Source of the DNA: Helianthus annuus
Lineage: Eukaryota; Streptophyta; Magnoliopsida; Asterales; Asteraceae
Assembly (NCBI RefSeq): GCF_002127325.2
Contig: NC_035443.2
Location: 148,938,415-149,002,414 of the forward strand
DNA length: 64,000 bases
Direction: 5' to 3'
Position 1 is the stretch's first letter; every line of letters starts with the position of its first letter. The notes below the pieces were generated by a model. It worked only from the letters and a program-made list of their open reading frames with translations, was not told the DNA's origin and searched no databases. Positions 159-27,633 of this stretch are shown one piece after another. The position numbers and the translations under genes are program-made.

Positions 159-350
159 GGACACGGCCTCGTGGTGACCGGGCACGGCCCCATGTTCAGG
201 TGCTAGTAACAAAAATTAAAGAAAAGAAACAGAAGCCTGGACACGGGGGCGTGTTCAGTGAACACGGCCCGTGTCCAGTTACCTGAACTGGGCGATTTTC
301 TGCAGGATGTTCAGCACGGGGCCGTGTTGGCTGGACACGGCCCGTGCTGA
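159..350. repeat. Three paired GC-rich quasi-palindromes
   Basis: Three pairs of a CACGG-NN-CCGTG-like 12-mer lie here, with half-sites starting at 162/183, 242/263 and 315/336. Each pair is 21 bp start to start. Further pairs in this truncated element start at 1172/1193, 1666/1688, 2447/2468 and 2530/2550. The motif is GC-rich against an AT-rich background. Confidence 0.85.
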
Positions 351-680
351 GCTTACTGTAATGAAAAAATTGTTGTCGGATGGCGCTGTTTTCATGCATG
401 AGCCATGTTTCTTGTTTCCCTTGTTATCCTTCACCATCCAGAGTGTGTTTTATTCCTTATAACACCATCTTAAAACCATCATTTCATTAAAAACCATAGA
501 GAGAGCTACCCAATGTTCCTAGAAAAGTAAAAAGAAATAAAAACGAAAAATCTTAACTAAAATAGGTCAGGAGGTACACAAAGTTATCATAAAGAGTTCT
601 ACTTCTTTGTTGGGAAAATTTCGGGAATAGTTTCCCGATGTAGTAGGACTCTTGGCTGATGTTTTTCTTCCTAGATGTTG

Positions 681-1118
681 TTAAAGCCATTCTTCTATCT
701 CCCTTGGAAGGAAGAAGGCGGCTTCATTTTCCTCAACATCTCGCGGAGGAGGGGGAACACCTACCGGGACTCCTTGTACTATCCCTTGCGGAGGCTCTGG
801 GTGTATAGCGTACAATTCGGCGGGTATGATGACTTCGGGAACCACGTTCCATGCCCTTTGGGTTATTATAGGTACCAAAGGAGGAGAGGCGAGAAGGTTT
901 AACCTCTGGTGCAAGAGGTTTACTTCTCGGAGACACCCTTCCAGTCCCACCGTTAGATGGTTGATACGGTCGACCAATGCTTCTTCCACCCCCGTCATTT
1001 CATCAATAGCCTCTCTTAGGGCGTAAACATAGTTTACAAGAGAGTCTTCCGCCGTTGACGATCTCCTCCCCTGTCGGTTATTTCTTGATGAAGACGTTCC
1101 GCTTGTCCTGCTCGCCAT
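681..1118 (-). CDS. Hypothetical ORF of a non-autonomous Athila-like element
   Basis: An ATG at 1116-1118 opens a 145-residue frame. The N-terminus is Ser/Arg-rich, a central helical stretch contains the spaced acidic and leucine residues of a short coiled coil, and the C-terminal third is rich in Pro, Val and Glu. No catalytic motif is visible. In the parent element this is the 3' region, the slot where the full-length copy carries its ATHILA ORF-1-like protein. The C-terminal tail of that protein also has a coiled-coil-like segment, but I cannot show homology by eye. Function unknown; it could be a decayed remnant of that ORF. Confidence 0.4.
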   Translation of the reverse strand: MASRTSGTSSSRNNRQGRRSSTAEDSLVNYVYALREAIDEMTGVEEALVDRINHLTVGLEGCLREVNLLHQRLNLLASPPLVPIITQRAWNVVPEVIIPAELYAIHPEPPQGIVQGVPVGVPPPPRDVEENEAAFFLPREIEEWL

Positions 1119-1656
1119 TTCTGGGGAAATAGACCGAAAAGGGCTCAATTTTTACGAAACAGTACATCGGACACGGCCCCGTGCTCGCTGAGCACGGCCC
1201 CGTGTCCAGTTGTCTGCAAGTTTTTAGATCAAGGAATCTTGGAGTTTTAAATTATTTTCATGATTTTTAGTCGAGTTTTAAGCACAGATAATTTAAAACG
1301 AAGTTACACAACTTACTTTGAGTAAGATCCCTTGAATAATAACCTTACAAACTTCACACTAAAGGTTGGAATCATGGAGTTTCCAAGCTTTAATGGAGGA
1401 AATGGTTGAAAAATTGAAAGAGAAGGCAATGAATAAAAGTGGAAAAGACAAGAGGGTTATTTGGAACCTTCTTTTAAAACTTACCTAGGATAGTATGAGT
1501 GAAGATCCCAGGAATCTCTGTCTTTTAAAGTGGTAAAAAATGAGCAGGATTCAGGCTGCATTTAAAGAAAACGACAGCGCGTTGGACACGGCCCCGTGTG
1601 CAGTTAAAATCCTGACATATTTTGTCCGTATTCTGACAAAATCAGAAGAGAATCTT

Positions 1657-1971
1657 TTAGGTGGACACGGGGGCGTGCTGACCTGGACACGGCCCCGTGT
1701 CTTGAAGCTGTCTTATGGAGTTTCTCCATTTTCTAAGGAACTTATTTATATCAGGTGGTTCCTTACTAGTTGGAACAACCCCAAAGTGCCTAAGATACCT
1801 TAATTTCTCTAGACTAAGACGAGAACGCAAGAGGTTGTCGGTGAGGGTAATTCCTATGTTTATTTTAGGTGGACAAGTCCAACCCTTTCCCGGGCTCTCG
1901 TTAAAGAAGGTGTATGCCGAATCGCTCAGGTCTATGTATGCACCGAACGAAGTCGATGGAGAGTCCTTCAC
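1657..1971 (-). pseudogene. Decayed ORF in the element interior
   Basis: This 104-codon open frame begins only at a GTG, overlaps the stop of the upstream minus-strand ORF by two bases, and lies in an adjacent frame. Its end reads through a GC-rich palindrome pair (Gly/Pro/Cys-rich tail), which suggests that the tail is not selected protein. It may be the frame-shifted continuation of the 1968-2381 ORF, which would make both parts one broken gene. No domain recognised. Confidence 0.3.
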
Positions 1972-2381
1972 GGCACAATCGGCACAGGACGACTATCGTC
2001 CATGTCTTTGCTAGAAATGAATGTAAGATTGGAAACAACGAGGTTGTTTTCATGCAATCCCAACACTTCTTCTTGGTTATCGTCTTGGGATGAATCAATG
2101 AAATCCTTCCTAAGCTCTTTTAACCAATTAAGAATTAGATTTTCTAATTGAATTAACTCGTCAAGGAGCATTTCTCCTAGAATATCTGGTTGGGCGCATT
2201 CGAGGGAGAGATAGTGATAATTTTTACTTTCGCCCCTCTTAAGGTTATAGGGAGATGATGGGTCTAAATAGTGGGGCTTATAATTTAGAAAATAACATTC
2301 TAATTCTTTATGGTTGCCGCCACATAATCGACACCATGTACCATAAGAGTGCCGAAAGTAAAAAGAATTACCATCACTCAT
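1968..2381 (-). CDS. Small CCHC zinc-knuckle ORF in the gag slot
   Basis: An ATG at 2379-2381 starts a 137-residue ORF. Near its N-terminus it has a short zinc-knuckle-like motif, C-x2-C-x3-H-x4-C (one residue shorter than the canonical x4 spacing), in a Tyr/Phe-rich context. An amphipathic Leu/Glu-rich helix and an acidic tail follow. It sits about 275 bp inside the element's 5' end, the gag position. The larger Athila-like element has an ORF of similar plan at the equivalent place (18779-19747): N-terminal cysteines, aromatic-rich stretch, helix. I infer a reduced nucleic-acid-binding gag substitute; sequence homology is unproven. Confidence 0.45.
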   Translation of the reverse strand: MSDGNSFYFRHSYGTWCRLCGGNHKELECYFLNYKPHYLDPSSPYNLKRGESKNYHYLSLECAQPDILGEMLLDELIQLENLILNWLKELRKDFIDSSQDDNQEEVLGLHENNLVVSNLTFISSKDMDDSRPVPIVP

Positions 2382-2655
2382 GTTTGTGTCAGAAATTACC
2401 AACCGCCGGGATCTAACTGTTCTGTTTTCAGTAACTGAATCTTGGGCACGGGAGCGTGTTGAGTGAGCACGGCCCTGTGTTCAGCTTACTGTCAGACTTA
2501 AAACAAGATTGCCAGTTCCAATGATTGGGCACGAGGCGTGTTCAGCGGGCACGACCCGTGCTGAGCTCTGCAGAAGCTGAAAAACTAGAAAAATCCTAAA
2601 AAAATAAAAAGAAAATAAAAAAATGATTAGGCCGTTGATTCCTAACTTTCTTAAG

Positions 2656-2798
2656 ATGCTGTTCCCACCCTTTGCCTAGAGATGTTGATACCCCCATTGA
2701 AGATACTGTTCCCACCCTATCGGTGAATGAAACCGTTCAGTGGAAACGTATGTACGAGAATCCTACCAGGGCTTTCACTTTTTCCGAGGGTATTTTGG
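2656..2798 (+). pseudogene. Antisense accessory gene of Tat element, exon fragment
   Basis: This open fragment encodes about 47 residues ending in a segment rich in aromatic and charged residues. The same reading frame resumes at 4472, after the solo LTR and its duplicated tttgg. Continuity of frame across that insertion shows the piece belongs to one exon with 4472-4522. The gene's 5' part is missing at the junction with the truncated element at 2655. I tentatively link it to the plant 'putative gypsy type transposon' antisense proteins of Tat elements. Confidence 0.6.
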
Positions 2799-4466
2799 TG
2801 ATGCGTGCTAGTGTGTATATGTTTTAGGTATATATTTTAAGCCCATTTTTACACTTTTTAGCCAAGTTTTAAATCTATAAGACACGATATTTACTAACAC
2901 TACACACACATATGGGCAAGTCCACCCATCGTGGACGTAGTATAGTGTTGGTAAGATACCGAGGTCGTGCAAGGACACAAGAGCTTTTAGTACCGGTTTA
3001 TCCTCAACGTCTAACCAAATCAAAATGTTAGAAAAGATTTTTTAAAAACTAAGAAAATAAAACTAAATGCTGAAAAATAAAAATAAAACAGATAGACAAG
3101 ATGAATCACTTGGATCCGACTCGTGTATAGTGTAACCTTTGATTATTTTCGCACTTTTGTACTTATTTAAGAGATTATCTTAGTTATTGTAGTAGGCCCC
3201 TCTTTTGAAGGTGACGTTACCCTCAACCCAGTAGTTTGAGTCAGCAAGGATACAATCCTAAAGGGTCGGATTATTGAAAGATAATTAATTAAGTTATTAA
3301 TGCAAATTATGGTAGGCCCCTCTTTTGAAGGTGACGTTACCCTCGACTAAGTAGTCTGAGTCAGCAGGGATACAGTCCTAAATAGCCGGGTTATAGTATT
3401 AATAGTAGTTTAACTTATGAAGGGGTCAAAGAGTTTGGATCCCCGCCATCCAATACCTTTGGGTATTGAAGGAGATCCTACTAAATTTGACCCAGGTCCC
3501 TTGCAGGACCTCTAAACGCTGAACAAGGGCAAGACTCTTACCAAACCGTTCCCTTAACCCCCGACCAGGTAGCCAACATACCTCCATATAGACCGTGGAG
3601 ATATGAATGGTGAAAATCTTTTATTTTATATAGACAGTAAAATAATGTAAAGACACCACGGACAAACGATAAGGAAGAATCACCTTCAACATAAGAAACT
3701 AGTTATTAAAGTCATTAATACAAAACCAAATAAAAAGTGCAAAAGATTAAAAATAAAAAGTATTACACTAGACACTTGTCTTCACCAAGTGATGTAAGAG
3801 ACTTAGGCAAACATGGCATTTGATTGTCAAGAACTCTTACGATCAATCTTGGATCCCGAGACGACTCACACACTCTATGATGGACAATGGATGATGGTGG
3901 TGGATGATGGTGTTATGGTGGTGGTAGGTGGTGGGTGAAGTGTGAGAGAGGTGGTGTGCCAAGGGATGAGTTGAAATGGCTCCAAGCACTCCAATTTATA
4001 GGCTGAACAGAAGCCTGGGCACGGCCCCGTGGCCGTCTGACACTCTCTTTTTTCATTAATTGTAATTCGCAATTACAATAAATGCGCCTGCAGTACTCTG
4101 ACCACGCCCCCGTGTCCGCTGGGCACGGCCCCGTGGTGGGCAATAGAAGCTTCTATTAGTTTGTCTTTTCTGCTGCTTCTTGGGCACGGCCCCGTGCTCG
4201 CTTAGCACGAGGCGTGTTCAGTCTTCTGCCTTCTCTGTTTTGCTTGGGAGGATGCTGTCGAGGGGTCGGGCAATCCACTTTTGTCCCTTTTCTTGTATTT
4301 ATGTTAGATTTTGCTGTCTTTTTGCTTCTTTTGTTAATTTGAGCTCATTTAATCCTGAAAATACAAAAGGAAGACAAAAACACACTTTTTCCAACATTAG
4401 TACTAAAAAAGGGTTAGTTTTATGCCACAATTGATATAATTTATATGTTGCATTTTGCGCGTATCA
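2799..4466 (-). mobile_element. Solo LTR, Athila-like family
   Basis: Read on the minus strand the LTR starts TGATACGCGC at 4466 and ends CGCATCA at 2799 (1668 bp). It matches the LTRs of the element at 16687-36113 along its length but differs at many sites, so it is a diverged subfamily. A perfect 5-bp target duplication, tttgg, flanks it at 2794-2798 and 4467-4471, and no PBS or internal sequence adjoins it, which defines a solo LTR. It contains a TATA-box-like segment (3994-4001, minus), a nearly perfect 31-bp palindrome around 4054-4084, GC-rich palindrome pairs at 4103/4124 and 4185/4206, and a ~120-bp direct repeat at about 3190-3390. It likely arose by LTR-LTR recombination. Confidence 0.9.
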
Positions 4467-4471
4467 TTTGG

Positions 4472-4699
4472 CTATGGGGGGTTTGAGTCCCTCCTATCTT
4501 GTTCGACCCAAGGCTCTCTTTGGTAAAAAAGGTATTTTTTCGTCTCGGATTTGCATTTGCTTATTTTGTTTCTTTGTATCTGTGTAGTCATCTTTAGTGC
4601 CTTTCTTTTGCAGAGTTGACTTTGTGGAGGTTGCTTCAGGGAGATTCCAAGGATGTGCAGTTTGTGGTTGATGGTGAAGTTGTTCCGGGTCTGGGCCGG
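4472..4699 (+). pseudogene. Antisense accessory gene of Tat element: exon, intron, exon
   Basis: Exon 4472-4522 continues the frame of 2656-2798. A probable intron follows, 4523-4613 (91 bp, GTAAAA donor, TTTTGCAG acceptor, pyrimidine-rich 3' end). The next exon starts at 4614 and keeps the frame to the copia insertion at 4699/4700. Beyond the copia element, from 36845, the same frame continues. The flanking 5-mers gccgg (4695-4699) and gccag (36840-36844) are the copia target duplication with one mismatch. The gene is therefore split by two separate insertions. Confidence 0.6.
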
Positions 4700-5436
4700 T
4701 GTTGGGATTGAACCCTATCAAAGGAACAGATAATTAAAGCCAAAACTGGATCAGGGCAGTGGATCCAGAATAAGCAGATGTTTACATACAAGTCTCTCCC
4801 CTTGAAAGTGATTACAACAACTGATGACCTCCTATCTGCTGATCTTGCTATCTGCTGACCTACAACTGCTGCTCAAAACAAGATCTGATGAAAGACTAAA
4901 GTCCTGCTGATTCAATCTACTGCTTTGAGTCAAGCACTGCTGATCCGGACAAGTGCTGCTGGGTTCACAGCAGTAGAAGGTTGCAGCAGCTGATCAATAG
5001 TTTGCTTTGTAATGTAATGAAATAGCAGTAGTTAAACACAACAGTATTTGTATAGATCAGAGGTTAGAGTTTGTTAGGAGGTTAGATGTCACTTTCATGG
5101 TGACGTCAGTTAAGATGCTCAGTTGTTTGCAAGTGCTTATAAATAGCTCAGTACTTTGTACTGTTCTATTAGCTCTTTTGCATCATTCGTCTTCTTTGCA
5201 CGAACAAACAACTGAGCTCTGGCTGAGGGGGAGTTTGCATTCATTCATCAATCATTGTAATCGTTGTTGAAATAAATTCAATCTTTCGGTTCATTGTGTA
5301 AAGATGTTTGATCAAAGTATTACTCTCGTTTGATTGTATGCAAAGTTTGTTTTCATCTTAATTCCGCTGCACACTCATCCACTTTCATCTTAATTACAAA
5401 CACAAAATACAATCAAAATCAAACTCAGATCCAACA
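4700..5436 (+). repeat. Copia 5' LTR
   Basis: Starts TGTTGGGATTG and ends CCAACA, 737 bp. A TATA-like TATAAATA lies in the segment 5135-5150, about 300 bp before the LTR end, and marks the likely start of the element transcript. The 3' LTR has identical ends and the same length once the nested insertion is removed. Confidence 0.95.
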
Positions 5437-5438
5437 AT

Positions 5439-5450
5439 TGGTATCAGAGC
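5439..5450 (+). other. Primer binding site, tRNA-iMet type
   Basis: TGGTATCAGAGC lies two bases after the 5' LTR. It is the canonical sequence complementary to the 3' end of plant initiator-methionine tRNA, used to prime minus-strand DNA. Confidence 0.95.
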
Positions 5451-5600
5451 TAGGACAGTCAAATTTGATTTAACAATCATTTTGACGTAAAAAGTTCAGC
5501 TCATAATAGTTGATACTGATCGTTTGTTCGTTTGTTGAAAAACAGAGTGTTGATTAATCACCATTAAAGTTGATTTATCAGTATCTGTAAAACAACAAGA

Positions 5601-7397
5601 ATGGCGTCACAATCTATGGATGATAAAAACAACACCAGCTCGCTTTTTAAACCACCAATGCTAAAAAGAAATGAGTACAACATCTGGCAGAGGAGGATGG
5701 GTCACATCCTCGCTCAACAAAGCACAGGTTGTTGGAGGTCTGTCGTCTTTGGTCCCCATGTTCCTACAGTGCCAAGCGCTGAAGATGCTAAACAATCCGT
5801 TCCAAAACCTATTGAAAATTATACCGAAACCGATTTTCAAAGGATTGAACTAGATGCTAAAGCGTTTACCATCATAGCATCAGCGCTGCCCAATGAAATA
5901 TATGCTGGACTGTTACACTGTAACAGTGCCAAAGAATTGTGGGACACGCTTAAGGAACAGTTTGGGGGTACCGAAGAAGTCATAGAAAACAATAGGGAAA
6001 TCCTGAACCAACAGTATGAAACATTTTGTCATGTTAAAGGTGAATCACTGACGCAACAATTTGAGCGTTTCAGTTGTCTCATCAGTGAACTGAGGCTTGT
6101 TAAAACCACTTTTACAAACTCAACTCAAAATAGCAGGTTCCTCAGGTTACTGCCAGAAAAATGGGACACCATAGCTTTTGTCACCCGAAATTCACCCGAG
6201 TTCAAGGATCTGACCTTGACCCAACTCCATGGTCGACTCCTGACCTACGAAAGGGAGTTGAACCAGAAAAGGAAGTTACAAGAGTCAGGAAAAACTGTTG
6301 ATGATTATACATTCGGTAACACTGCTCTTTTGGGTCAAGAAGAATCTGGGAGTAGTGGTAAGGATCAGGGTTATGATCACTTCATTGACATAACTGCTGG
6401 TGCAAATTTTAATAACTCTGATCCTCACTCTACAAGTTATGCATTCACTGCAAACGAAAACCAGATGTCAGACAATCTAAGCTTTGAACTAAATGATCTA
6501 CAGCATTTTGACCCCACTGATTTAGAGGAAATGGACATCCTGCATCAACTGGCCTTGCTAAGTATTAGAACTAGCAAGTTTTATAAAAGAACATGGCGAA
6601 AATTCCCAGGGTTGCATGGGAATCTAAGGGTTGGGTTGGATAAATCGAAAATAAAATGCTACAAGTGTAATAGGCTGGGACACTTTGCTAGGGAGTGTAG
6701 GAGTCAAACTACTGGTCCCATAATCACACATCCTAGCTCAAATCCTAGACCTCAAAATCAAAACACTGTGCACTATGCCCAATATGCCCCAGCAGCTCAA
6801 GTGAACACTGCTTATTATGCTGCTACCCCTGTGCCAGTGCACTATGTCCAAACCACTGTTCCACAGATTCAATTTGTTCAAACCCCTGTCCCCCAGGCAC
6901 AGGTGCAACCTACACCTCAAACCACTGCTCCAGCAGCAGTGCAACCAGATCAACAAAGTTTTTTCACTCAAGGGTTTGTTGATTGGAGCAGTATGCCTGA
7001 AGACCTTAGTGATGAAAATTTTACACTCTATGCTTCCAATGTTTCTTCTCATGATGAATTTTGTTTGATGGCATTAGAATCAATACAGGAGGGTGTTGAA
7101 TCTGAAGAGGAACAGCTGGGTTCCGAAGCAGTGGATGAGGTGATTGAAGCAGTGGTTATTGCTGTGGCTAATGAAGTACCGTTGGGAGAAAGTTCAGGCA
7201 CCCTGATTGAACCACTGACAGATCCATGGTCCGAAGAGAACAAAGAAGAAAAGGCAGGTGAGAAAGAAGAAAGAGCCGAAGATGAAGAAAATCCTCAATG
7301 TGATTGTGCAATGATGGCTGCTGCCAAGGTATCACCTCAAGTTCTTGAAAAACTGTGTTCTGACAATTGCATTATTGCTTTTGCTAACATCAAATAG
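5601..7397 (+). pseudogene. gag: Copia gag, N-terminal part, ended by in-frame TAG
   Basis: ATG at 5601 opens 598 codons. Residues about 10-230 match the copia-type capsid (UBN2/retrotran_gag) pattern, with the Trp-rich start and the helical segment carrying the LWDTLKEQF-type motif. A zinc knuckle C-x2-C-x4-H-x4-C spans residues 353-366. A Pro/Gln/Thr-rich region and then a Glu-rich acidic tail follow. The TAG at 7395-7397 is in the same frame as the next ORF (7398-8366), so it looks like a single nonsense change within a longer gag rather than the natural end. The protein would form the virus-like particle and bind element RNA in the cytoplasm. Confidence 0.85.
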
Positions 7398-8366
7398 GTG
7401 AATGAAAACCTTCGTGATAAAATCTTATCTGATGAAGTCAAATTTGAAAGATCTCTAAAAGAACTTAAAAACAATTTGACTGAAAAAGAAAAAGAGATTA
7501 GCAGCATGAAAGAAGAGCAAAGCATAACCAAAACCCAACTCCAAACCTTGGTAGAAAAATACCAAGTTTGTAAAAAGGAGTTAGAGTCCACCCAGATCAC
7601 ATGTGAGAGATGGGTGGAATCCTGCAAAGGGTATGAGGTTATGCTTGAAAAACAGATAAAAAGCAATGTGAAATTTGGGGTTGGTTATAGAAAACATGAT
7701 GATGAAAACACTGCTTTTGGAAAATCTGTTTCAACCACTGATGAAACTGCCGAGTTCATCCCCACAAACAAGAATGGCCAAGAAGTGAAAATCACTGACA
7801 AACTTGGTAACAAAATCACACTTGACAGACCAATGGGCCCCTCTGTTTTTGAGGAGATTGAGAATCATCAGTTTAAACCAAAATGGTCTGATGAGTGTGA
7901 TATTCTTGAAAATTTCAAGCCAATGGACTTTACATCAACTGATGGTGTTAAAGCTCCAAAAGCTAAAGTCATACCTCTCAAAGACATCCCAGCAGTGGTT
8001 AAAACCTCTGCTGCAAAGGAGTCTGAAAAGAGAAAGAAGAAAGAAAAAATTGATAATTTGTTTTGTGAATTCTGTGAGAAAAGGAATCATCTAATAAAAG
8101 ACTGCTTCCACTTAAAAGCTTATGATTTAAACAAAACAAGTGTCATTGCTTCAGCTGAAAGTTGCAGTGTTTGTGGTAAAACAAACCATAAAACTCAAGC
8201 ATGTGTGTACCTCAAAAACTTTGATGTGAAAAAGAATGAGTACATTGCTAAAACATCCTTGAGTTCATCAGCATCATCACCATCTGTCAAATTCAGTGCC
8301 AGTTCAAACAGCTGTCACAAAACAGCTGAACCAAACATCTGTCAAAAGAGATGTTCAGGTTACTGA
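7398..8366 (+). pseudogene. Copia gag extension with two more zinc knuckles
   Basis: In frame with the upstream gag after one TAG. The first ~75 residues form a Lys/Glu-rich coiled coil. Two further C-x2-C-x4-H-x4-C knuckles begin at residues 223 and 256, giving three knuckles for the whole gag. The frame ends at 8366 in sequence that continues sensibly only in the +1 frame (8296-8652), indicating a small indel around 8290-8366. The extended gag with multiple knuckles is unlike short copia gags and supports a Sirevirus-like assignment. Confidence 0.75.
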
Positions 8367-8652
8367 TGCACCTCCTGCCAACCAATTCAGAAAAGGCAAG
8401 GAAAAACAGTCTTACCAATGGATTCCACACGTTTATGAGGTCTACAAAAAGCCCTCTAAACCCAGAGTGAATAGGCATCCTTTTGGTTATCAGCAGGTGA
8501 CTGGTCAAGACCCCCAACAGCGGTTAGCAAGAAACAGTACTAAAACTGTTCAAACCCCTGATCTAACTACTGTCCTTCACTCTGCATCCACACCAGTCAC
8601 TGTTGACACCCCATCCAAAGCCCTGCTGGCTTTGGAGACCTTAATGAACTAA
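8296..8652 (+). pseudogene. Copia gag-protease linker, frameshifted
   Basis: Lys/Pro/Gln/Thr-rich segment of low complexity joining the gag knuckles to the protease. It is in a different frame from both neighbours, so there is at least one indel on each side (about 8300-8366 and about 8640-8660). No domain is visible. Confidence 0.6.
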
Positions 8653-8666
8653 TCCTTTTACTTCAT

Positions 8667-9527
8667 GTGCAGGGAGCTTCTGCATGCTTTGATAGTCTTT
8701 GGTATGTAGATAGTGGAGGCTCCAGGCACATGACAGGATGTAAAGCCCCCCTAAAAGACTTTAAAATCCATGGTGGGGGTGATATATCCTTTGGGAATAA
8801 TAGTAAAGGGAAAGTTCTGGGGTCTGGTACAGTGCAATCTGGAAATGTAAAATTTGAAAATGTCAATCTAATAGACAATCTGAAATTCAACCTTCTGAGT
8901 GTATCTCAAATGAGTGACAAAGGGTTTGGGTCATTCTTCACAAAAGATTGTTGTAGGATTGTTGGACCAGAAATGGTCAGAAAGATTGAAGCAATAATCA
9001 AAACTGGTCAAACTAAACTTGTTGCTCAAAGAAGTGGCAATGTTTATGTTGTTGACATGTCAAAAGAGTGTCCCAGAGCTGATGCCTGTCTGTTCTCAGC
9101 TGCCTCTAACAAAGAGACAGAACTTTGGCACAGAAGGCTGGGGCACACAAATCTTAAGACAATCACAAAAATTTCAAAAAATGGTTTGGTAAGAGGCCTA
9201 CCACAAAAATTGTTTTCATGTTCTGAACATTGCATTTCCTGTTTAAAAGGAAAACAACATAAAAGTTCTTATAAGTCCATTGAAGAGTCCAAAACAACCC
9301 AATGTTTGCAAATGCTGCACATGGATTTGTTTGGCCCAGTTCAAGTCATGAGCCTTAAGAAGAAAAGATATTGTTTGGTTATTGTTGATGACTTTTCTAG
9401 GTTTACATGGACTTTCTTTTTACACTCTAAAGATGAGACTGCAAGCATTTTGCAATACTTTGTGACACAGGTTGAAAAGCAATTTGACCTTCCAGTGAAA
9501 AGCTTCAGGAGTGACAATGGCACATAA
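8667..9527 (+). pseudogene. pol: Copia protease and integrase N-terminal half
   Basis: Residues 12-19 contain the aspartic protease active site in the copia form (WYVDSGGS). The integrase zinc-binding HHCC segment follows (HRRLGH, then the C-x2-C pair), then the first catalytic Asp in the HMDLFGP motif and the second in SDNGT. The frame then meets TAA at 9525-9527, four codons after the second catalytic Asp, inside the DD35E core. The next ORF continues in the same frame. Integrase would join the cDNA to the genome in the nucleus; this copy cannot make it intact. Confidence 0.9.
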
Positions 9528-16621: not shown

Positions 16622-16660
16622 AGTTCCACAATAATGAAGAGTTTTGGCATTATCTATTCC

Positions 16661-16669: not shown

Positions 16670-16670
16670 T

Positions 16671-16686: not shown

Positions 16687-18376
16687 TGATGTGTGTAAAA
16701 TGCAACATATAAATCACATCAATTAAGGCATAAAACTAACCCTTTTTAAGTACTAATGTTGGAAAAAGAGTGTTTTTGTCTTTCTTTTGTATTTTCAGGA
16801 TGAAATGAGCTCAAATTCACAAAAGAAGCAAAAAGACAACCAATTCTAGCATAAATACAAGAAAAGGAATAAAAGTAGACTGCCCGGACCCTCAACGGCA
16901 CCCCCAAAGCAAAGAGGAGAAAGCAGAAGACTGAACACGCCCCGTGTCCAGCGGACACGGGGCCGTGCCCAAGAAGCAGCAGAAAAGACAAACTTGTAGA
17001 AGCTTCCATTGCCCACCACGGGGCCGTGTCCAGCGGGCACGGGGGCGTGATGAAAGTACAGCAGGCGCATTAATTGTAATTGCGAATTACAATTAATGAA
17101 GAGAGAGAGTGTCAGACGGGCACGGGGGCGTGTCCAGCGGACACGGGGCCGTGCCCAGCCTTCTGTTCAGCCTATAAATAGGGGTGCTTGGTTTCATTCC
17201 ATCTCATCCCTTGGCACACCACCTCTCTCACACTTCATCCACCACCCACCACCACCATAACACCATCATCCACCACCATCATCCATTGTCCATCATAGAG
17301 TGTGTGAGTCGTCTCGGGATCCAAGATTGATAGTAAGAGTTCTTGACAATCAAGGCCATGTTTGCCTAAGTCTCTTACATCACTTGGTGAAGACAAGTGT
17401 TTAGTATAATACTTTTTATTTTTAATCTTTTGCACTTTTTATTTGGTTTTGTATTAATGACTTTAATAACTAGTTACTTATGTTGAAGGTGATCTTTCCT
17501 TATCGTTTGTCCGTGGTGTCTTGGCGTTATTTTACTGTCTATATAAAATAAAAGATTTTCACCATTCATATCTCCACGGTCTATATGGAGGTATGTTGGC
17601 TACCTGGTCGGGGGTTAAGGGAACGGTTTGGTAAGGGTCTTGCCCTTGTTCAGCGTTTAGAGGTCCTGCTTGGGACCTGGGTCAATTTTAGTAGGATCTC
17701 CTTCAATGCCCATAGGTATTGGATGGCGGGGATCCAAACTCTTTGACCCCCTCATAAGTTAACTACTATTAATACTATAACCCGGCTATTTAGGACTGTA
17801 TCCCTGCTGACTCAGACTACTTAGCCGAGGGTAACGTCACCGCCGAAAGCGGGGCCTACCACAATTTGCATTATTAACTTAATTCATTATCTTTCAATAA
17901 TCCGACCCTTTAGGATTGTATCCTTGCTGACTCAAACTACTGGGTTGAGGGTAACGTCGCCTTCAAAAGAGGGGCCTACTACAATAACTAAGATAATCTC
18001 TTAAACAAGTGCAAAAGTGCGAAAATAATCAAAGGTTATACTAATACACGTGTCGGATCCAAGTGATTCATCTTGTCTATCTGTTTTTATTTTATTTTAT
18101 TTTTCAGCATTTAGTTAGTTTTTATTTTTCTTAGTTTAAAACATTTTTCTCACTTTTTGATTTGATTAGACGTTGAGGATAAACCGGTATTAAAAGCTCT
18201 TGTGTCCTTGGACGACCTCGGTATCTTACCAACACTATACTACGTCCACGATGGGTGCACTTGCCCATATGTGTTTAGTGTTAGTAAATATCGTGTTTTA
18301 TAAATTTAAAACTTGGCTAAAAGTGTAAAAAGGGCTTAAATATACATCTAAATTATAACACACTTCACGCACATCA
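16687..18376 (+). repeat. Athila-like 5' LTR
   Basis: 1690 bp. The probable core promoter is TATAAATA at 17173-17180. Upstream lie three GC-rich palindrome pairs (starts 16936/16956, 17017/17038, 17121/17142) and a 31-bp palindrome. Downstream, two imperfect ~117-bp direct repeats lie at about 17786-17880 and 17901-17990, each with the TGACTCA(G/A)ACTACT and GAGGGTAACGTC words. Confidence 0.93.
17068..17098. repeat. 31-bp perfect palindrome with 3-base centre, LTR U3
   Basis: Two 14-base arms (CATTAATTGTAATT and its complement) flank GCG. It lies about 75 bases upstream of the TATA box. It is repeated at 27325-27355 in the 3' LTR and, with small changes, at about 4054-4084 in the solo LTR. 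It could be a regulatory dyad or a hairpin; no factor assigned. Confidence 0.85.
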
Positions 18377-18382
18377 AGTTTT

Positions 18383-18400
18383 TGGCGCCGTTGCCGGGGA
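18383..18400 (+). other. Primer binding site, tRNA-Asp type
   Basis: TGGCGCCGTTGCCGGGGA, six bases after the 5' LTR, complementary to the 3' end of plant tRNA-Asp and typical of the Athila lineage. Confidence 0.85.
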
Positions 18401-18778
18401 CACAAGGATTTTAAGAAAGCTTAAAATCGACGGCCTAATCAGTTTTTCAAAACCTTTTCAAAACGCGCGCACATTTTTCTGCATTTTAGTTTAGTTTGCA
18501 TTTACAGTAGTCTGAACACGGGGCCGTGCTCGCTGAACACGCCCCCGTGCTGCATATTTTTAGTTAGATACCCAGATACAGAGTCTGAACACGGGGCCGT
18601 GCTCACTGAACACGCCCCCGTGTCCAACGTGACCAGTAAATTTAATTAAAACGCCCAGATACAGACCCTGAACACGGGGCCGTGTTCACTCAACACGGGG
18701 CCGTGTCCAGCTTCTGTTTCCGTCTTTATTTTTGTTTTCTGGTCCCGAGACTCAGTTGTGGTCTGTTGAGTGATCCTT
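18401..18778 (+). repeat. Leader with three repeated GC-palindrome units
   Basis: This non-coding leader of about 380 bases holds three imperfect copies of a 74-81-bp unit. Each has one palindrome pair (18517/18538, 18590/18611, 18673/18694), all spaced 21 bp, followed by AT-rich sequence with CCCAGATACAGA. It is transcribed as the 5' end of the genomic RNA, so it could act as RNA structure or packaging signal; this is inference. Confidence 0.75.
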
Positions 18779-19747
18779 ATGGATCAATACTCAAGAGGTT
18801 ACAACTACACCTATGATGAGGATGATTATAGGGGTAATTATTGCACTAGTTGTCGTAACGCATGCTCGGTTCAATGTAATAACTCATATCAACCATCCAA
18901 TTCATACAACTACTATGAGGAGCCCAGGTACGAGCCATCAACTTCATACACATCCTATGAAGACCAAAGGTATGAACCTCCTCCCTCATACTCATATTTT
19001 GATGAACCAAGGTATGAGCCTTCATACTCATACTTTGAAGACTCAAGATATGAGCCACCACCTTCATACTCTTATTATGAGGAACCATGGTGTGAACAAC
19101 CCACCTCATATGAGTACTATGAAGAACAAAGTTTCGACCCTTATCCATCATATACTTACAATGAAGAACAATGGTGTGAACCATCTACTTCATATGAGTA
19201 TTATGAGGAGCCAATGATCGAACAACCGGATTCAAGCTTTGAGGATCCAAATTCTTTTTCTCTCACCGAAGTGACCAATAGGATATTAGAACACATTAAA
19301 ACTATCGAACGTTACATGAAAGAATCTCGCGCAAGGGAAGAGGAATCCCGCGCAAGAGAAGAATTAAATGGTAATAATAACGTAGAGATAGTTGAAAATG
19401 TAAAAACGGAAGAACAAGAAAGTGAAAAACCGACACATGAGTTAAACAATGAAAAAGGTGAGTCCGATAATGTTAAAATTCATGAAGAGTCTAATTTTGA
19501 AGAAATTAATCTCTTGTCACCTAATTTTGAAAATCATTGTTTAGTAACCCCTCATGCTAAGTTTTTAAAAGAGTTAAACACTAGTGCTAAAATCAAAGAA
19601 ATGGTAAGTGTTAAGTTAACAAATGATCAAACCTCGCTAATAAAAGAAGACCCTTTTGAAATTAACATTACACCGGTTCCATGTTTTTTTTTCAAAATTC
19701 ATTTATTAGTAATATCACCATTGATAAAGATCTTTGTGTTAACATAA
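18779..19747 (+). CDS. Tyr/Glu/Pro-repeat ORF in the gag slot
   Basis: ATG at 18779 (a GTG three codons upstream is in frame); 322 residues. The N-terminus has C-x2-C-x3-C-x3-C spacing. Residues about 40-145 are tandem copies of a 14-16-residue unit of the type [14 protein letters not shown]. Next come a helical segment with an ARE-ES repeat, an acidic linker, and a region matching the gag-protease linker of Athila polyproteins (HAKFLKEL motif). The ORF ends in an alternative frame past a T9 run at 19684-19692, where the pol frame opens. It lacks a recognisable capsid domain. I infer it replaces gag or is its truncated relic. Confidence 0.6.
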
Positions 19748-22700
19748 TGCCTAACTACATTTTTGAAAAATTAAGTATTAGTGATTTTACTCCACTTCAA
19801 ATTCCCATTTTTCTATCCGATCGAAAAATGATAAAATCAATCGGTGTAGTTGAAGATGTTTTGGTTCAAACAAATCAATTGGTGATCCCAACCGACTTTG
19901 TCATCCTTGATGACGCCCCACTAGTCTTGGGAAAACCTTTTGTACAAACTCATAAAGCTTTGAAAAACCAGAAATTCAACAATCTACCTCTTCAGTTAGG
20001 GGCATTCAAAAGGAGCATAGACCTTGAGCGTTCAATGAAATATCCTTTTGGCAATAATGACCCCCTAATTGAAGATGAAACTGAACCACCCGATACGACT
20101 AGCGAAGAAGACCACTTTGTCGAAGAAGAGATAGCCATAGAACAAACCTTTAAGGTTCTTAATCTAGATGAGCCACAAAATAAGGTGTCTTCTAAAGACC
20201 CAACCATTGAGCTCAAAGAACTTCCTAAAGGTTTGGAATATGCTTTTCTAGGCAAAGATGGTAGTTTACCTGTAATTATTTCATCTAAATTAAGTAACGT
20301 AGAAAAAGAGAAATTAGTTAACCTACTTAAAAAACACAAAAACGCGATCGCTTGGAAGCTTGTAGATATTAAAGGAATAAGCCCTTCCATGTGCACGCAC
20401 AAAATTTTAATGAATGATGACTACAAAACGGAAATTCAACCACAACGAAGAGTGAACCCCAATGTTCAAGAAGTGGTTAAGAATGAAGTCATCAAGCTGC
20501 TTGACGCCGGACTAATCTACCCTATCTCCGATAGTCCGTGGGTAAGTCCCGTTCAAGTAGTCCCAAAGAAAGGAGGTATGACGGTAATAACTAATGAGAA
20601 AAATGAATTAATACCAACAAGAACCGTCACAGGATGGAGAGTTTGTATAGATTATAGGCGATTAAATGAAGCAACAAGGAAAGACCACTTTCCTTTACCC
20701 TTCATTGATCAAATGTTAGAACGATTATCCGGTCATAAATTTTATTGTTTCTTAGATGGTTTTTCAGGTTACTTTCAAATACCGATAGCACCAGAAGACC
20801 AAGAGAAAACAACTTTCACATGTCCCTACGGAACTTTCGCATATCGACGCATGCCATTTGGTCTATGTAATGCCCCTGCAACATTCCAACGTTGTATGGT
20901 GGCCATTTTCCATGATATGATAGAAAAGACAATGGAAGTCTTCATGGACGACTTTTCCATCTTTGGAGACTCATATGACCAATGCCTCGATAATCTTGAA
21001 CGAATGCTATCCCGATGTGAGGAAACTAACCTCGCCCTTAACTGGGAAAAATGCCATTTCATGGTAACAGAGGGAATAGTACTCGGTCACAAAATCTCAA
21101 GCGAAGGAATGGAAGTTGATCGAGCAAAAATAGAAACTATTTCTCGATTACCTCCTCCATCCTCCGTAAGAGCAATCAGAAGTTTCCTAGGGCATGCCGG
21201 ATTTTATAGAAGGTTTATCAAGGACTTTTCAAAAATTTCAAGGCCTCTAACAAAATTACTTGAAAAAGATGCACCCTTCATCTTTGACAAGGAATGCAAT
21301 CAAGCATTTCTAACCCTCAAAGAAATGCTAGTCAACGCACCTATCATGATAGCGCCAGATTGGAAATTTCCTTTCGAAATCATGTGTGATGCAAGTGACT
21401 TTGCTGTTGGAGCAGTCTCGGGACAAAGAAAAGAAAAGCATTTCCACCCAATTTATTATGCTAGTAAAACTCTTAATGATGCACAAGAAAATTATACAAC
21501 TACAGAAAAAGAATTACTAGCAGTGGTATTTGCTTTTGATAAATTTCGTTCTTATCTTGTTCTTTCTAAAACTATAGTCTATACAGACCATGCAGCCATC
21601 AGGTACCTCTTCAAGAAACAAGACGCAAAACCTCGTTTAATCAGATGGATTCTACTCCTCCAAGAATTCGACATCGAAATCAAGGACAAAAGAGGAGCAG
21701 AAAACACTGCTGCAGATCATCTCTCACGCTTAGAAGACCCAGCTTTGGAAACAACCAGAGACGAGCAAATCAACGAGAAATTTCCCACAGAATCCTTGGA
21801 AATGATGGAGAGTAGACAAGAGCCATGGTATGCCGACTACGCTAATTTCCTAGCTAGCGGTATAGTCACCAAAGGATGGCCACATCATCAAAGAAAGAAA
21901 TTCTTTGCTGATGTAAAGCATTACTTTTGGGAAGATCCCTATCTTTTCAAAATGTGTGCCGACCAGCTCATCCGAAGGTGTGTCCATGGTAATGAAGCAC
22001 GAAGAATTCTCCGTCATTGTCATGAAGGTCCATACGGAGGACATCATGGTGCCGCAAGTACCGCAAGAAAGGTATTTGAATCAGGATTTTACTGGCCAAC
22101 CATTTACAAGGATGCAAAAGACCTTGTAAAGACATGTGATGCCTGCCAGAGATCAGGTAATATTTCTTCCAAACACGAAATGCCTCAAAATGGCATTCTC
22201 GTTTGTGAAATCTTTGATGTGTGGGGGCTCGATTTCATGGGACCTTTCCCACCTTCAAAGGGAAACAAATATATACTTGTGGCAGTCGATTACTTGTCTA
22301 AATGGGCGGAGGCCGAAGCTCTTCCAACAAATGATGGAAGAGTAGTGGTAAAATTTTTGAAAAAACTGTTTTCTCGCTTCGGGACACCAAAGGCTTTAAT
22401 AAGTGATAGAGGTACCCATTTTTGCAATCATCAACTCGAAAAAATATTAACAAGGTATGGGGTCTATCACCGGATCTCAACAGCATATCACCCTCAAACA
22501 AATGGGCAAGCCGAAGTGACTAATCGAGGTTTAAAACGAATACTTGAAAAAACCGTAGGAATAAATAAAAAAGAATGGGCCGACAAATTAGACGATGCTT
22601 TATGGGCTTTTCGAACTGCTTATAAAACCACTATAGGCACAACCCCATATAAACTTGTCTATGGAAAAAGTTGTCACTTGCCAGTAGAAATAGCTCACAA

Positions 22701-23106
22701 AGCCTACTGGGCAATAAAAAACGTAAACTTAGATTTAGAAACCACCGGTAAAAATCGATTTTGTCAAATAAATGAATTAGACGAGCTAAGGAATTATGCA
22801 TATTCTAACTCCGAAATTTATAAAGAAAGAATGAAAAATTTACACGATAAATATATTAAATATAATGAATTTCGGGTAGGAGATCAGGTTCTATTGTTTA
22901 ATTCACGACTTCGATTATTTCCTGGTAAGCTAAAATCTAGGTGGTCAGGACCTTTTTCCGTCACCCATGTTTTTCCACACGGTGCAGTAGAAATTAAAAC
23001 TCGAAATGGGATACCATTTAAAGTCAATGGCCAACGGCTAAAACTCTACCGAGGATCCATTGAGGATGAGCAAGAGGAGATCTCACTTCAAACGGTTGAC
23101 GAATAA
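19681..23106 (+). CDS. pol: Athila-like pol: protease remnant, RT, RNase H, integrase
   Basis: 1141 codons without a stop. The protease-like region (residues 1-95) keeps the VEDVLV and LGKPF motifs, but the usual DLGAS active site reads DKDLCV, so catalysis is doubtful. RT spans about 250-450 with FMDD at residues 421-424. RNase H starts near 560 with its first Asp at 570, and the DHLSRLE end motif is present. The integrase zinc region (about 790-840) contains the FYWPTIY and C-x2-C motifs. Catalytic D851, D909 and E945 give exact DD35E spacing. A C-terminal chromodomain is not evident. The pol frame overlaps the upstream ORF by 67 bases and begins at a T-run, so it may be reached by frameshifting or have been separated by an indel. 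Confidence 0.92.
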
Positions 23107-23908
23107 ATTCATACCCGACATGTCGCGGACAGGTAAGTGTACGTTTAAAAACCGGTAAGTCTTCTAGCCATTTTCGGACATAAGGGGCATGCACACGAGC
23201 ACAAAAAAAAATAATAATAATAATAATAATATTTTCAAAAACTTTGCTCGGCACGGGGCCGTGTCCGATGGACACGGGGCCGTGTCGAGGCAACTGTCGG
23301 GATAAAACCCTCTTTTCCTATCAGTTACCTCATTCCACACGCCCCGTATAGCCGAAAACGCTCTGGTTCCAGGCGATTTTCCGCAGATTTCCGACGTCAC
23401 TACCGAGTTTAACAACATCAAGGTATGATTCTATCATCTTTAGTAGTTAGATTAGTTACTTGCATGTAGTTAAAACATCAAAAATTGGGGAAAAATCTAG
23501 GGTTCTTCATGTTCATCCGGATCGAACTCAAAATTTTTGATGAAATCTGTTAGTAGTAGTTTAGATTAGTGTAGTAGGAAGTAAATAAACATGTATTGTT
23601 GATAGATTCGTTCGATTTCCAACTAAAACCCCAAACCCTTGTTCTTGAACCGAAAAACACGAAATTGAAAGGGTAAACGGTTTGTTTTGGGAAAAACGAC
23701 ACTTAGGGTTTCATTTTCGGGGGAAACTGCTACTATTGGGCTAAAAATTTTTAGGTTTTCGAAACCGGGACGAAAAATGAAGTTTTTGGGTTACAGACGC
23801 CTGGACACGGGGCCGTGTCCGCTGAACACGGGGCCGTGTCCAGCCCACTGTTTGCGGTTTCACTCCAAATATCTTTGTTTCTTACTAACTTTTAATGTAT
23901 TCTTTCAG
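23107..23908 (+). other. Pol-ORF3 spacer with probable intron 23423-23908
   Basis: No supported coding sequence. A donor-like AAG|GTATGA at 23420-23428 and a TTCTTTCAG acceptor ending at 23908, directly before the ATG of the next ORF, suggest a 486-bp intron. This would let the downstream ORF be expressed from a spliced subgenomic RNA. It also contains an (AAT)n run (23211-23230) and palindrome pairs at 23252/23273 and 23806/23827. Confidence 0.45.
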
Positions 23909-25051
23909 ATGTCAAAATTCACGAGGTTCAACGCAAGCGAACTTGACGCTAGGGCACGGTATGAGATACTACAAACAAGACCGGAGGAGTACCCTAGGCG
24001 GGCATGTACCGACTTGTTGACCATGGTGAATCCACTTGACCGATTCAACAATATCGTGAGAGGTCCGCTGGCAGTTGCATTGAACACCCGGCTTCGGTCG
24101 GTGCATCAATGCACAATGGAGTTTTACAGTACTTTCATTTTCAACTCGAGGTGTGACCCGTTTGACAATGAGGGGGTCACATTTCGATGTGGAGGGACAA
24201 TGTACTCAATCTCCATGGCACAGTTTGGATCTATCATAGGGCTATATGGTGAAGAGGAATCGGGGAATGAAGAGAATACTGGGGGGCTACGAGACTTGGA
24301 TGAAACCGAACGCCAAGCCGCATGGGCTCAAATAGGTGAAGGAATCTACAACCCTAGCAGCACCAAAAGCACCAAACTGAGGGACCCGCTATACCGCTAC
24401 ATTCACAGGCTCCTCACTTACTCGCTGAACCAACGTCACGACAGTAGTGGCGTTGTAGGGTTGAAAGATTTGGTTGTCCTTCACTGCATCCACAACCAAA
24501 AGCCTCTCGATGTTCCATATCTCCTACTGCGAAACATGCATCTCAACCGCCTTGCTAGAGCTCCAACACCTATCTTCTTTGGGGGATGGGTGTACCGTAT
24601 TTTCAAGCACTTCACGAACATCCCAAGGTCCTTTCAAAGAAGTCCATGGTCGGGACGAGTCGATTACCACATTTTCCGAGCCATGAACTTGCTTTATGAG
24701 GCGGAAGACGGGACGGTAAGCTTTCAAAGGATGCAAGGCTATGCATGGAACCCACAGGAGGCTCTAGTTCTTCATGCACCACCTCCCCATTATCAGTACC
24801 AACCCCATGGCGATCCGGGTCAATCCTCCTCACAAGGAGGCGGTTTTCCTAACTTTCAAAGTTTACATGATCTTTTGCAGGAAAACCTCATGTGCACCAG
24901 GAACACCTACAATCTCGCCAACAACACATACCACCGGGTTGGAGCTATCGAGCGCAACATTAACGATATACAAGATGATATCGGTAGCATCCGGGAGTAC
25001 ATGGCGGGGCATGGGGGTGGAGGTGATGGTAGCGATGAAGACATGGAGTAG
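23909..25051 (+). CDS. ATHILA ORF-1-type protein in the env slot
   Basis: ATG at 23909 immediately follows a CAG acceptor; 380 residues. An open frame extends further upstream to a TTG but runs through a palindrome pair, so I choose the ATG. The body resembles plant ATHILA ORF-1 family proteins: a globular helical domain with the GGTMYSISMAQFGSIIGLY-like core, WAQIGEGIYNPS, and a helix starting RDPLYRYIHR. Residues about 290-320 are Gln/Pro/Gly-rich, followed by a coiled-coil-like segment and an Asp/Gly-rich acidic end. I see no convincing transmembrane helix. The function is unknown; its position after pol matches the env-like slot of Athila elements. Confidence 0.75.
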   Translation: MSKFTRFNASELDARARYEILQTRPEEYPRRACTDLLTMVNPLDRFNNIVRGPLAVALNTRLRSVHQCTMEFYSTFIFNSRCDPFDNEGVTFRCGGTMYSISMAQFGSIIGLYGEEESGNEENTGGLRDLDETERQAAWAQIGEGIYNPSSTKSTKLRDPLYRYIHRLLTYSLNQRHDSSGVVGLKDLVVLHCIHNQKPLDVPYLLLRNMHLNRLARAPTPIFFGGWVYRIFKHFTNIPRSFQRSPWSGRVDYHIFRAMNLLYEAEDGTVSFQRMQGYAWNPQEALVLHAPPPHYQYQPHGDPGQSSSQGGGFPNFQSLHDLLQENLMCTRNTYNLANNTYHRVGAIERNINDIQDDIGSIREYMAGHGGGGDGSDEDME

Positions 25052-26942
25052 GAGGTTTGAAGGAACAAGGGGCAGGTTGGTGATGAGCCCACAGGTTTAA
25101 GTACCCTTCTCTATCAAACAATTTACGGCCTGCGTGCCGCTTGTTGAACAATTTACTTTCTTTAACTGTTTTTTATTTTCGTTTTATTTTCACTTTATGC
25201 TTGGAGACAATTAACGTTGGTAAATTAGGATGGTTTATGTTTGTTTGGTGTGGTATTGAGTGATTAAACAGGTACAATGCAAGGGTTAGAGTGCTAAACA
25301 TTAGCACTTGCAGCCCCAAAATGGAGAAACCGGGAGACAAAACCTGTTTTTCAGGCTCACAGACTGTCCACACGGGGACGTGTCCAGCCGACACGCCCCC
25401 GTGTTCATCTCCCAGACCTGCTGTTTGGTTACTGACCTGCAATTATTTGCCAGACACGAGGCCGTGTCCAACCGACACGCCCCCGTGTTCATCTTCTGTA
25501 AGTTTTCATTACTGGCAGTTCACCACGGGGCCGTGTCTAGTGGACACGGGGCCGTGTTCAGACTGCCAGTAACATAAATCTTTGCTTTTTTTACCCACTT
25601 TTACACATTCTAATCAACCGAAAATCTTATTTTTGGACACATTGAGGACAATGTGTAATTTAAGTGTGGGGGGGATGCTAAAACCTTGAATTTTGCAAAT
25701 CCTAAATACAAGCCTTACACAAAACTCTATTGGAACCGCTAAACACCCCAAATTTTTTCAAAAACTTTTTCGTTTTTTTTATTTACTTGTCTTAGTTTAA
25801 TTTGGGAATAACAAGTTCTAAAAAGGTTATATTTTTACAAATTTACAACCGATAGCTTCGTGATAACAAAGAACCAACATAAGAAAATTACGAAACGGCA
25901 TAACAAGTCTAGTTAAAAATTCGATTATATATACTTGATCACATTAAAAACCCATTCCCACAAAAGTGAGTTTTGAGCCTTTATTGAGCATACAAATATA
26001 CATCTTTAGACTAAATGCTCATTTTTCGTTTCTTGTGTGAATAGCCGCTTGGTTCTTACAACTCTAGAACTTGCCACGACGATACATCCCCGGTCCTTAC
26101 CAACTTAAACCCAAGTAAGTAAGTGATGGAGGCATTAGGACTAACCATATTTTTCTTTCTAAACCATTATTTTTCATTTTTTTTGCCACCTACCCAAAAT
26201 CCCCCTAGTTAGCCCCTTTGAGCCTAAACCTTTCATTTCATTACCCCAAAACCCTTTTTACCCACCAAAAACCCTTTTTTATTTTTCACCCTTTATTTTA
26301 GTGACAAGCTCGGTTTTTCATAAGCTCGCCATTTTATGTGACTCTAAAAAAAAAATGATGATGAAGTCAAAAACAAACAAAAGCTAGATAAAAGCTTTTT
26401 TGGAGAAATACTTCAAAATAAAAAGTCACTAAAAACAAGGTATGTCACGAAAACCGACGCTTTTGACGATTTTCGCCCTTTTACTAACTAACCCAACCAC
26501 CCACCTTTAACCCAAGCCTAACCCTTCACCCAAAAAGTCCTCTTGATATTTACAAAGGTAAAAAGTTAAAAAGGAGGAGGATTGATTGCTTGGCAAGCCT
26601 ATGGAAGGCGTAAGTTCCATGCCGCTCTCGAGTGATTCACTAAAAATTACACCTTCGGCCGAGTGTTGAGTGATCTCCCGCGAGGTATGTGAACTTGTAT
26701 ATAAATGGAATTTTAATAAGGCATGCTATGCCCGAATAAGTAATTTATCTTATGAAACGTTCAAAATAAATCATAACGAATAGGATTGTAAATAAATAAA
26801 AATAAAACTTACAAAGATCTTGGATTCCCGACACTCTAGGACAAGCCAAAAACTTTCTCTTCTACCTATTCCATTTGGGAGTGTAAGCCACATTTAAAGA
26901 GTTTTGCTTGAGGACAAGCAAAAGTTCAAGTGTGGGGGTATT
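25052..26942 (+). other. Athila-like 3' non-coding region with second PPT-like tract
   Basis: About 1.9 kb without a supportable ORF. It has palindrome pairs at 25371/25392, 25455/25476 and 25524/25545, a PPT-like AGTGTGGGGGGG tract near 25664-25675 preceded by TTGAGGACAA, and long C/A-rich and T-rich stretches. The first part is shared with the truncated element at positions 1-140. The same TTGAGGACAA plus GTGTGGGGG arrangement recurs at 26909-26940, where it is the true PPT. Confidence 0.7.
26929..26942 (+). other. Athila-like polypurine tract
   Basis: AGTGTGGGGGTATT directly abuts the 3' LTR at 26943. Confidence 0.75.
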
Positions 26943-27633
26943 TGATGTGTGTAAAATGCAACATATAAATCACATCAATTAAGGCATAAAACTAACTCTT
27001 TTTAAGTACTAATGTTGGAAAAAGAGTGTTTTTGTCTTTCTTTTGTATTTTCGGGATGAAATGAGCTCAAATTCACAAAAGAAGCAAAAAGACAACCAAT
27101 TCTAGCATAAATACAAGAAAAGGAATAAAAGTAGACTGCCCGGACCCTCAACGGCACCCCCCAAAGCAAAGAGGAGAAAGCAGAAGACTGAACACGCCCC
27201 GTGTCCAGCGGACACGGGGCCGTGCCCAAGAAGCAGCAGAAAAGACAAACTTGTAGAAGCTTCCATTGCCCACCACGGGGCCGTGTCCAGCGGGCACGGG
27301 GGCGTGGTGAAAGTACAGCAGGCGCATTAATTGTAATTGCGAATTACAATTAATGAAAAGAGAGAGTGTCAGACGGGCACGGGGGCGTGTCCAGCGGACA
27401 CGGGGCCGTGCCCAGCCTTCTGTTCAGCCTATAAATAGGGGTGCTTGGTTTCATTCCATCTCATCCCTTGGCACACCACCTCTCTCACACTTCATCCACC
27501 ACCCACCACCACCATAACACCATCATCCACCACCATCATCCATTGTCCATCATAGAGTGTGTGAGTCGTCTCGGGATCCAAGATTGATAGTAAGAGTTCT
27601 TGACAATCAAGGCCATGTTTGCCTAAGTCTCTT
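26943..27633 (+). repeat. Athila-like 3' LTR, left part
   Basis: Matches 16687-17383 except for about five single-base differences seen by eye. It contains the same TATA box and palindromes (pairs 27193/27213, 27274/27295, 27378/27399). It is interrupted after ctctt (27629-27633) by the chromovirus-like element. Confidence 0.95.

Follow-up and report, generated by a model that had tools for sequence, protein, structure and literature searches.

Paired GC-rich palindromes at a nearly fixed 21-bp spacing in sunflower Athila retrotransposons: putative docking sites of an oligomeric protein

Introduction

The RM boxes of Sireviruses (Ty1/copia) are palindromic, CpG-rich motifs that lie in the long terminal repeat (LTR) ahead of the TATA box and, again, ahead of the env-like gene, and the motif is reportedly absent from the classic Ty1/copia elements compared in the same study (PMC2829016, Bousios et al. 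2010). In maize, palindromes in the cis-region of Sirevirus LTRs have a strong predicted secondary structure (Bousios et al. 2016, as cited in PMC10760457), and the VANC targets of VANDAL DNA transposons are 9-mer motifs that are bound by an element-encoded protein and for which methylation loss was shown (Hosaka et al. 2017, PMC5735166). A 64,000-nt stretch of sunflower chromosome 11 (HanXRQr2; 148938415-149002414), referred to below as the window, contains Athila elements of which a comparable feature is part, namely a 12-nt GC-rich near-palindrome arranged in pairs that lie, with few exceptions, 21 bp apart from start to start. This feature is genuine, extends across the genome and is under more constraint than the sequence around it. 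The pairs are interpreted here, with a probability of about one half, as DNA sites of a putative and probably oligomeric protein that would act in transcription or against silencing.

As far as the available text of these papers goes, the closest described system is the RM boxes of Sireviruses, and what is new in sunflower is the Ty3/gypsy lineage and the locked spacing of two helical turns. Both motifs are short GC-rich palindromes present in many copies with diverged flanks, and the binding factor is not known in either case. In the present Athila family, as in Sireviruses, many copies form a cluster in the LTR before the TATA box, and others precede the third open reading frame (ORF), the pairs at 23252 and 23806 lying ahead of ORF3 at 23909. 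The CGG-CCG signature of the RM box recurs in part: the commonest half-site, CA-CGG-GG-CCG-TG, contains it, and it is present in 144 of 284 halves and in at least one half of 100 of 142 pairs. Unlike RM boxes, the sunflower motif includes forms such as CACGCCCCCGTG and CACGGGGGCGTG that lack CGG-CCG, its constant part being CACG..CGTG; it is arranged in strict 21-bp pairs, further examples of which lie in the leader and downstream of ORF3; and its host element is a Ty3/gypsy Athila, with reverse transcriptase (RT) before integrase and an ATHILA ORF, and not a Sirevirus. The maize palindrome clusters are alike in their LTR location and predicted structure, and a link to small RNAs is reported for maize. 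VANC targets are likewise short motifs of non-coding regions that expand through tandem repeats, but they belong to DNA transposons, have a known binding protein and are nowhere called palindromes in the available text of the source.

No description of the exact motif was found in the searches made of open-licence papers, and the accessible parts of PMC6911290, PMC2410132 and PMC12477314 contain nothing on such a motif. The statement of a first-pass annotation of the window that no description was known can therefore be kept for the motif itself, with the RM boxes to be added as a close analogue. Two unrelated retrotransposon superfamilies appear to converge on palindromic boxes in the same places and with partly the same CGG/CCG signature, and this convergence upstream of the TATA box and of the third ORF points to a shared need.

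Occurrence and spacing of the half-sites

Each half-site consists of conserved arms, CACG and CGTG, flanking a loose G/C core. The 12-mer forms the centre of an imperfect palindrome that extends further on both sides, approximately CTGRACACGG..CCGTGTYCAG, and neighbouring units thus stand nearly head-to-tail. A loose scan of the window for the half-site gave 51 matches, corresponding to 23 pairs and five others. Start-to-start spacing was 21 bp in 19 pairs, 20 bp in three (at 2530, 16936 and 27193, with an 11-nt form in one or both halves) and 22 bp in one (at 1666), as had been counted in the first-pass annotation. The five others are lone full half-sites at 1587 and 4020 and matches with a wrong arm base at 23338, 25124 and 37043; the two lone positions are paired in relatives, so that a single 21-bp unit has probably disappeared from both.

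The 3.01-Gb sunflower genome was then scanned on both strands, with the reversed motif as the control. Exact CACGGGGCCGTG was found 140,078 times (69,610 + 70,468), against 30 times (19 + 11) for the control, which excludes chance. Two half-sites with intact arms and a gap of 9, CACGNNNNCGTG-N9-CACGNNNNCGTG, occurred at 77,167 places (control, 5), compared with 189 pairs for gaps 0–8 summed (control, 6) and 5,419 for gaps 10–38 summed (control, 18). A gap of exactly 9 accounts for 93% of all pairs with a gap of up to 38, and the spacing lock extends over the whole genome. Among 50 places listed with gaps 10–38, 11 had gap 10, 13 were triplets that keep the 21-bp period, and the remaining 26 had other gaps; gap 10 is present as established variants, the pair at 1666 being an example. 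Twenty random 10-kb stretches of the genome contained no pair, nor did any of them match the element at an E-value of 1e-10, which made them unusable as neutral copies. In viral contigs, 42 stretches held one motif place each.

The full element of the window begins at about 16697 on the plus strand and has three pairs in the U3 part of the 5' LTR and three in each of the leader, the 3' region behind ORF3 and the 3' LTR, besides two in the gap that separates pol from ORF3. The U3 pairs a (16936..16967, 11+9+12), b (17017..17049, 12+9+12) and c (17121..17153) all lie within 240 bp upstream of the TATA box (CTATAAATAG, 17172..17181, plus strand), and the half-sites of pair c begin at -51 and -30 relative to it. 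The leader pairs are at 18517..18549, 18590..18622 and 18673..18705. One pair of the pol-ORF3 gap is at 23252..23284, where the homologous copy L030 has five half-sites, and the other at 23806..23838, about 70 bp ahead of the ORF3 ATG. The pairs of the 3' region are at 25371..25403, 25455..25487 and 25524..25556, and 3' LTR pairs a, b and c at 27193..27224, 27274..27306 and 27378..27410, all on the plus strand.

A second element, at 1-4456, is reversed and carries its half-sites on the minus strand. These are U3 pairs a (4185..4216) and b (4103..4135), a lone half-site at the position of U3 pair c (4020..4031), leader pairs at 2530..2560 (11+9+11) and 2447..2479, a pair with a 10-nt linker and 22-bp spacing (1666..1699), a second lone half-site (1587..1598), an internal pair (1172..1204) and three pairs of the 3' region (315..346, 242..273 and 162..194).

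Conservation and turnover of the units

Conservation was measured against the window copy in a motif-found sample composed of four of eight, all nine and all 16 loci of three fetches together with the reversed window element, the comparison being restricted to stretches alignable over 150 bases. Identity was 0.987 in the arms, 0.774 in the linker, 0.831 in the five adjacent bases, 0.890 in the further flank and 0.946 in the rest, in line with the earlier remark that the sequence between the halves varies more than their spacing. CpG was kept at 420 of 441 sites in the arms and at 852 of 1,029 in the rest. Because most of these loci had been found by the motif, the count was repeated on nine half-sites other than the searched 12-mer, using the first two motif-found sets and the reversed element and taking gaps as changes. 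Identity was then 0.972 in the arms, 0.812 in the linker and 0.938 in the rest, and CpG was kept at 141 of 152 arm sites, against 840 of 1,024 elsewhere (Fisher p 0.0004). The transition rate was 0.176 in the linker, 0.054 in the further flank and 0.031 in the rest, and the corresponding transversion rates were 0.050, 0.056 and 0.022. The 9-nt linker (for example 16947-16955) is the least conserved of the stretches compared, with transitions mainly at its outer positions and a nearly fixed length.

A further sample was chosen through the TATA box. The genome has 12,940 places with the 17-mer that surrounds it, and 20 LTRs were taken out of the first 100 places, some already sampled places being skipped; these LTRs come from a single chromosome, and the TATA anchor favours young copies. 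The half-site at -30 (-29 in L114) had intact arms in 20 of 20 LTRs. A same-shaped 8-base control downstream of the TATA box was kept at 8,758 of 12,940 places genome-wide (binomial p 0.0004 against 20 of 20) and, by manual reading, in 15 of the 20 LTRs (Fisher p 0.047). With gaps set aside, identity was 0.963 in the arms, 0.844 between pairs and 0.733 in the linker. Mean column entropy, computed over the 20 LTRs and the window copy, was 0.176 bits in the arms, 0.516 between pairs and 0.472 in the linker. In the same set the linker measured 9 nt in 57 cases, 10 nt in four and 14 nt in one, the last standing beside a doubtful match.

Three loci (L030, L082 and L093) have runs of three to five half-sites with a 21-bp period where the window has two, and U3 runs of the same size were present in three of the 20 TATA-chosen LTRs (L097, L104 and L105). 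The first description of the motif as appearing almost only in pairs is to be corrected in that other copies show such runs, on the same 21-bp period, as well as singles, from which it follows that units are added and removed as whole 21-bp blocks. A possible route for spreading them is recombination, which is described between distant families of Athila (PMC2410132). About 25 position classes with dissimilar outer flanks have the paired design in common. The finding that had been named as undoing the proposal, a single very recent amplification in tandem without excess conservation, is half borne out: 21-bp gain and loss does occur, but the arms exceed their surroundings in conservation, in the TATA-chosen sample too.

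Of the reversed element, one LTR and some 2.8 kb of internal sequence lie inside the window, the rest being cut off by the window edge, and no gag, pol or ORF3 match was found in the visible part. Its LTR (2802..4456, minus strand, by self-alignment) had been described as a solo LTR and is actually the 5' LTR of this element. Three other loci were examined for coding sequence (L029, L036 and L037), and neither L029 nor L037 had a gag, pol or ORF3 match, while seven and eight internal pairs, respectively, were present beyond those of the LTRs. The occurrence of pairs in these coding-less elements makes a role tied to coding sequence in cis unlikely; control DNA, or RNA packaging in trans, remain as roles. 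L036 contains, at about 2671-2982, a pol-like fragment that is just 36% identical to the window pol and lies inside a related element. Among the first 100 of the 12,940 TATA 17-mer places, same-strand neighbours less than 15 kb apart were separated by 5.1–6.3 kb in 16 of 24 cases and by 10.1–10.3 kb in five of 24. L029 and L037, both lacking a coding match, belong to the shorter class and are the two of it that were examined in full.

Interpretation of the pairs

A protein site fits best because the arms are conserved, the linker is hypervariable at near-fixed length, the position relative to the TATA box is fixed and the pairs are retained in two coding-less elements. Each 12-mer would be a DNA half-site, with CACG/CGTG arms around the loose G/C core, and two half-sites 21 bp apart, a distance of two turns, would face the same side of the helix and together make up one docking site for the putative protein, whose binding would be cooperative or that of a dimer of dimers. 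The clusters upstream of the TATA box and in other non-coding stretches would act in cis, either promoting transcription or shielding control regions from silencing, and half-sites would arise and vanish via duplication and deletion of the 21-bp unit. The arms presumably resemble the binding sites of NAC, CAMTA, BZR or ARF proteins. The geometry is sharp and testable, and a single genome offers natural variants of it in the tens of thousands. If a protein binds, sunflower would be a very large natural binding assay; without such a protein, the case would illustrate how strongly the period of a tandem repeat can by itself mimic constraint.

Several observations weigh against a protein site. The core is strand-biased in the sense of the element, 141 oriented pairs comprising 81 G/G, 47 G/C, 10 C/G, no C/C and three with a tied half, homologous copies being counted separately; a symmetric DNA site needs no such bias, for which the inheritance of duplicated units might account. 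Singles and runs of three to five are tolerated, a lone half-site standing at pair c in five of the 20 TATA-chosen LTRs (L102, L105, L108, L110 and L114), and block duplication of 21-bp units may explain part of the spacing lock. The share of gaps was 72/960 (7.5%) in arms, 42/540 (7.8%) in linkers and 142/2,920 (4.9%) between pairs, gaps being no rarer in arms because whole units get lost. Transitions in the linker and adjacent bases are about 4–6 times as fast as in the rest of the element and 2–3 times as fast as in the further flank, which is not predicted by a passive spacer; the excess could stem from rapid deamination of cytosines or from selection acting on the pattern of purines and pyrimidines. 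Finally, the protein partner of the half-sites is itself putative.

In a more specific form, which appears doubtful, the pairs would be docking sites of an anti-silencing system of LTR retrotransposons, where a protein of autonomous copies, for example that of ORF3, would bind all copies, the coding-less ones included, and keep LTRs and control regions unmethylated. The rapid change of linkers at constant length would then record an arms race. In sunflower, the Athila cluster with the highest GC, which may or may not be the present family, is reported to show a drop of LTR methylation in all contexts (PMC12844716). Nuclear localisation is predicted for an Athila third-ORF product of the same Pfam kin in sunflower (PMC11728184), which fits a DNA-binding role without showing one.

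Of the rival explanations, the one that survives best, albeit unlikely, takes each pair as an RNA hairpin with one half-site per arm and a 3-nt loop, serving packaging, dimerisation, translation or as an RNA mark. Folding of 14 of the 23 window pairs found 13 to be more stable than shuffles (z <= -2), but a tandem palindrome necessarily self-folds, and a hairpin loop does not require exactly 9 nt. The G-rich strand bias of the core with its lack of C/C pairs (Fisher p 0.016, the copies not being independent) agrees with a hairpin, as does the retention of pairs by coding-less elements, which would need packaging in trans; the -30/-51 position relative to the TATA box suggests DNA. Complementarity across the pair was slightly over chance on 20 window pairs (p 0.039 and 0.026). 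In a between-class set of 124 pairs in 25 position classes, obtained by dropping 17 array-internal pairs and one unoriented pair, and with a clustering so rough that a few classes are possibly related, the outer bases were marginally complementary (p ~0.03), whereas the other three tests gave p 0.16, 0.25 and 0.87. Covariation within classes (19 classes, 95 pairs with a 9-nt linker) was absent, with p 0.42 at the apex, 0.46 at the base and 0.82 and 0.995 for the others. A class-weighted dyad scan, from which five array classes were dropped, placed the centre of the hairpin at rank 38 of 71. On covariation grounds a hairpin, whether of RNA or cruciform, was accordingly rejected, since the trend of the 20 pairs did not persist in the larger data, and of the two candidates put forward in the first-pass annotation, a two-turn protein site and a conserved RNA structure, the former fits best and the latter is not supported.

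It is improbable, too, that the pairs are tandem repeats of a 21-bp unit, neutral or selfish, that spread inside the element by slippage and template switching, with the spacing a mere repeat period. Such a process would naturally yield the arrays of three to five units, in part with identical linkers, and the losses of single units that are seen; however, the arms are far better kept than the linkers of the same unit, also in the TATA-chosen LTRs, arm CpG is retained more than CpG elsewhere, and the roughly 25 position classes differ in their outer flanks.

Least probable is a host-facing role, as proposed for maize Sireviruses, in which hairpin RNA would feed small RNAs and the host would recognise the element there: small RNAs are reported to be in excess at the palindrome clusters of maize Sireviruses (PMC10760457), and the transition excess adjoining the arms is the expected trace of local cytosine methylation and deamination, but the retention of CpG-bearing arms and the strict spacing are left unexplained. 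Recognition by small RNAs could be a cost alongside another function.

Anatomy of the host elements

Judged by its predicted coding regions, the full element is an Athila of the Ty3/gypsy superfamily, with a pol of gypsy order followed by an ATHILA-family ORF. Self-alignment placed the 5' LTR at 16697..18377 (plus strand) and the 3' LTR, split by a nested insertion, at 26943-27633 and 35109-36114 (plus strand), the two LTRs being 99.3–99.8% identical. A frame scan gave an open frame in the gag position (18770..19747, plus strand, stop to stop), for which no Pfam match was found. The pol frame (19666..23106, plus strand, stop to stop) encodes RT, RNase H and integrase in a single frame, with the Pfam domains RVT_1, RT_RNaseH, Integrase_H2C2 and rve in this order.

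ORF3 (23909..25051, plus strand), presumably an env-like gene, matches the Pfam family ATHILA (PF03078) with an E-value of 6.9e-06 and 25.6 bits (cut-off 20.2), and 14 of 15 aligned proteins match the same family. It also weakly resembles Transposase_32 (PF20167), with a score under the cut-off of that family. The predicted structure of ORF3 was poor (mean pLDDT 37) and unusable for structure search.

The insertion in the Athila 3' LTR is a nested LTR element at 27634-35108, whose own LTRs measure 1,633 bp and are 99.9% identical. A 726-bp direct repeat (4711-5436 and 36114-36839, 99.2% identical) lies on both sides of the Athila insertion, and its copies are perhaps the LTRs of an outer element. 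Tandem repeats at 55022-55233, 56631-56695 and 58433-58634 are built of units that contain a different palindrome, GCACATGTGC or a near-identical form.

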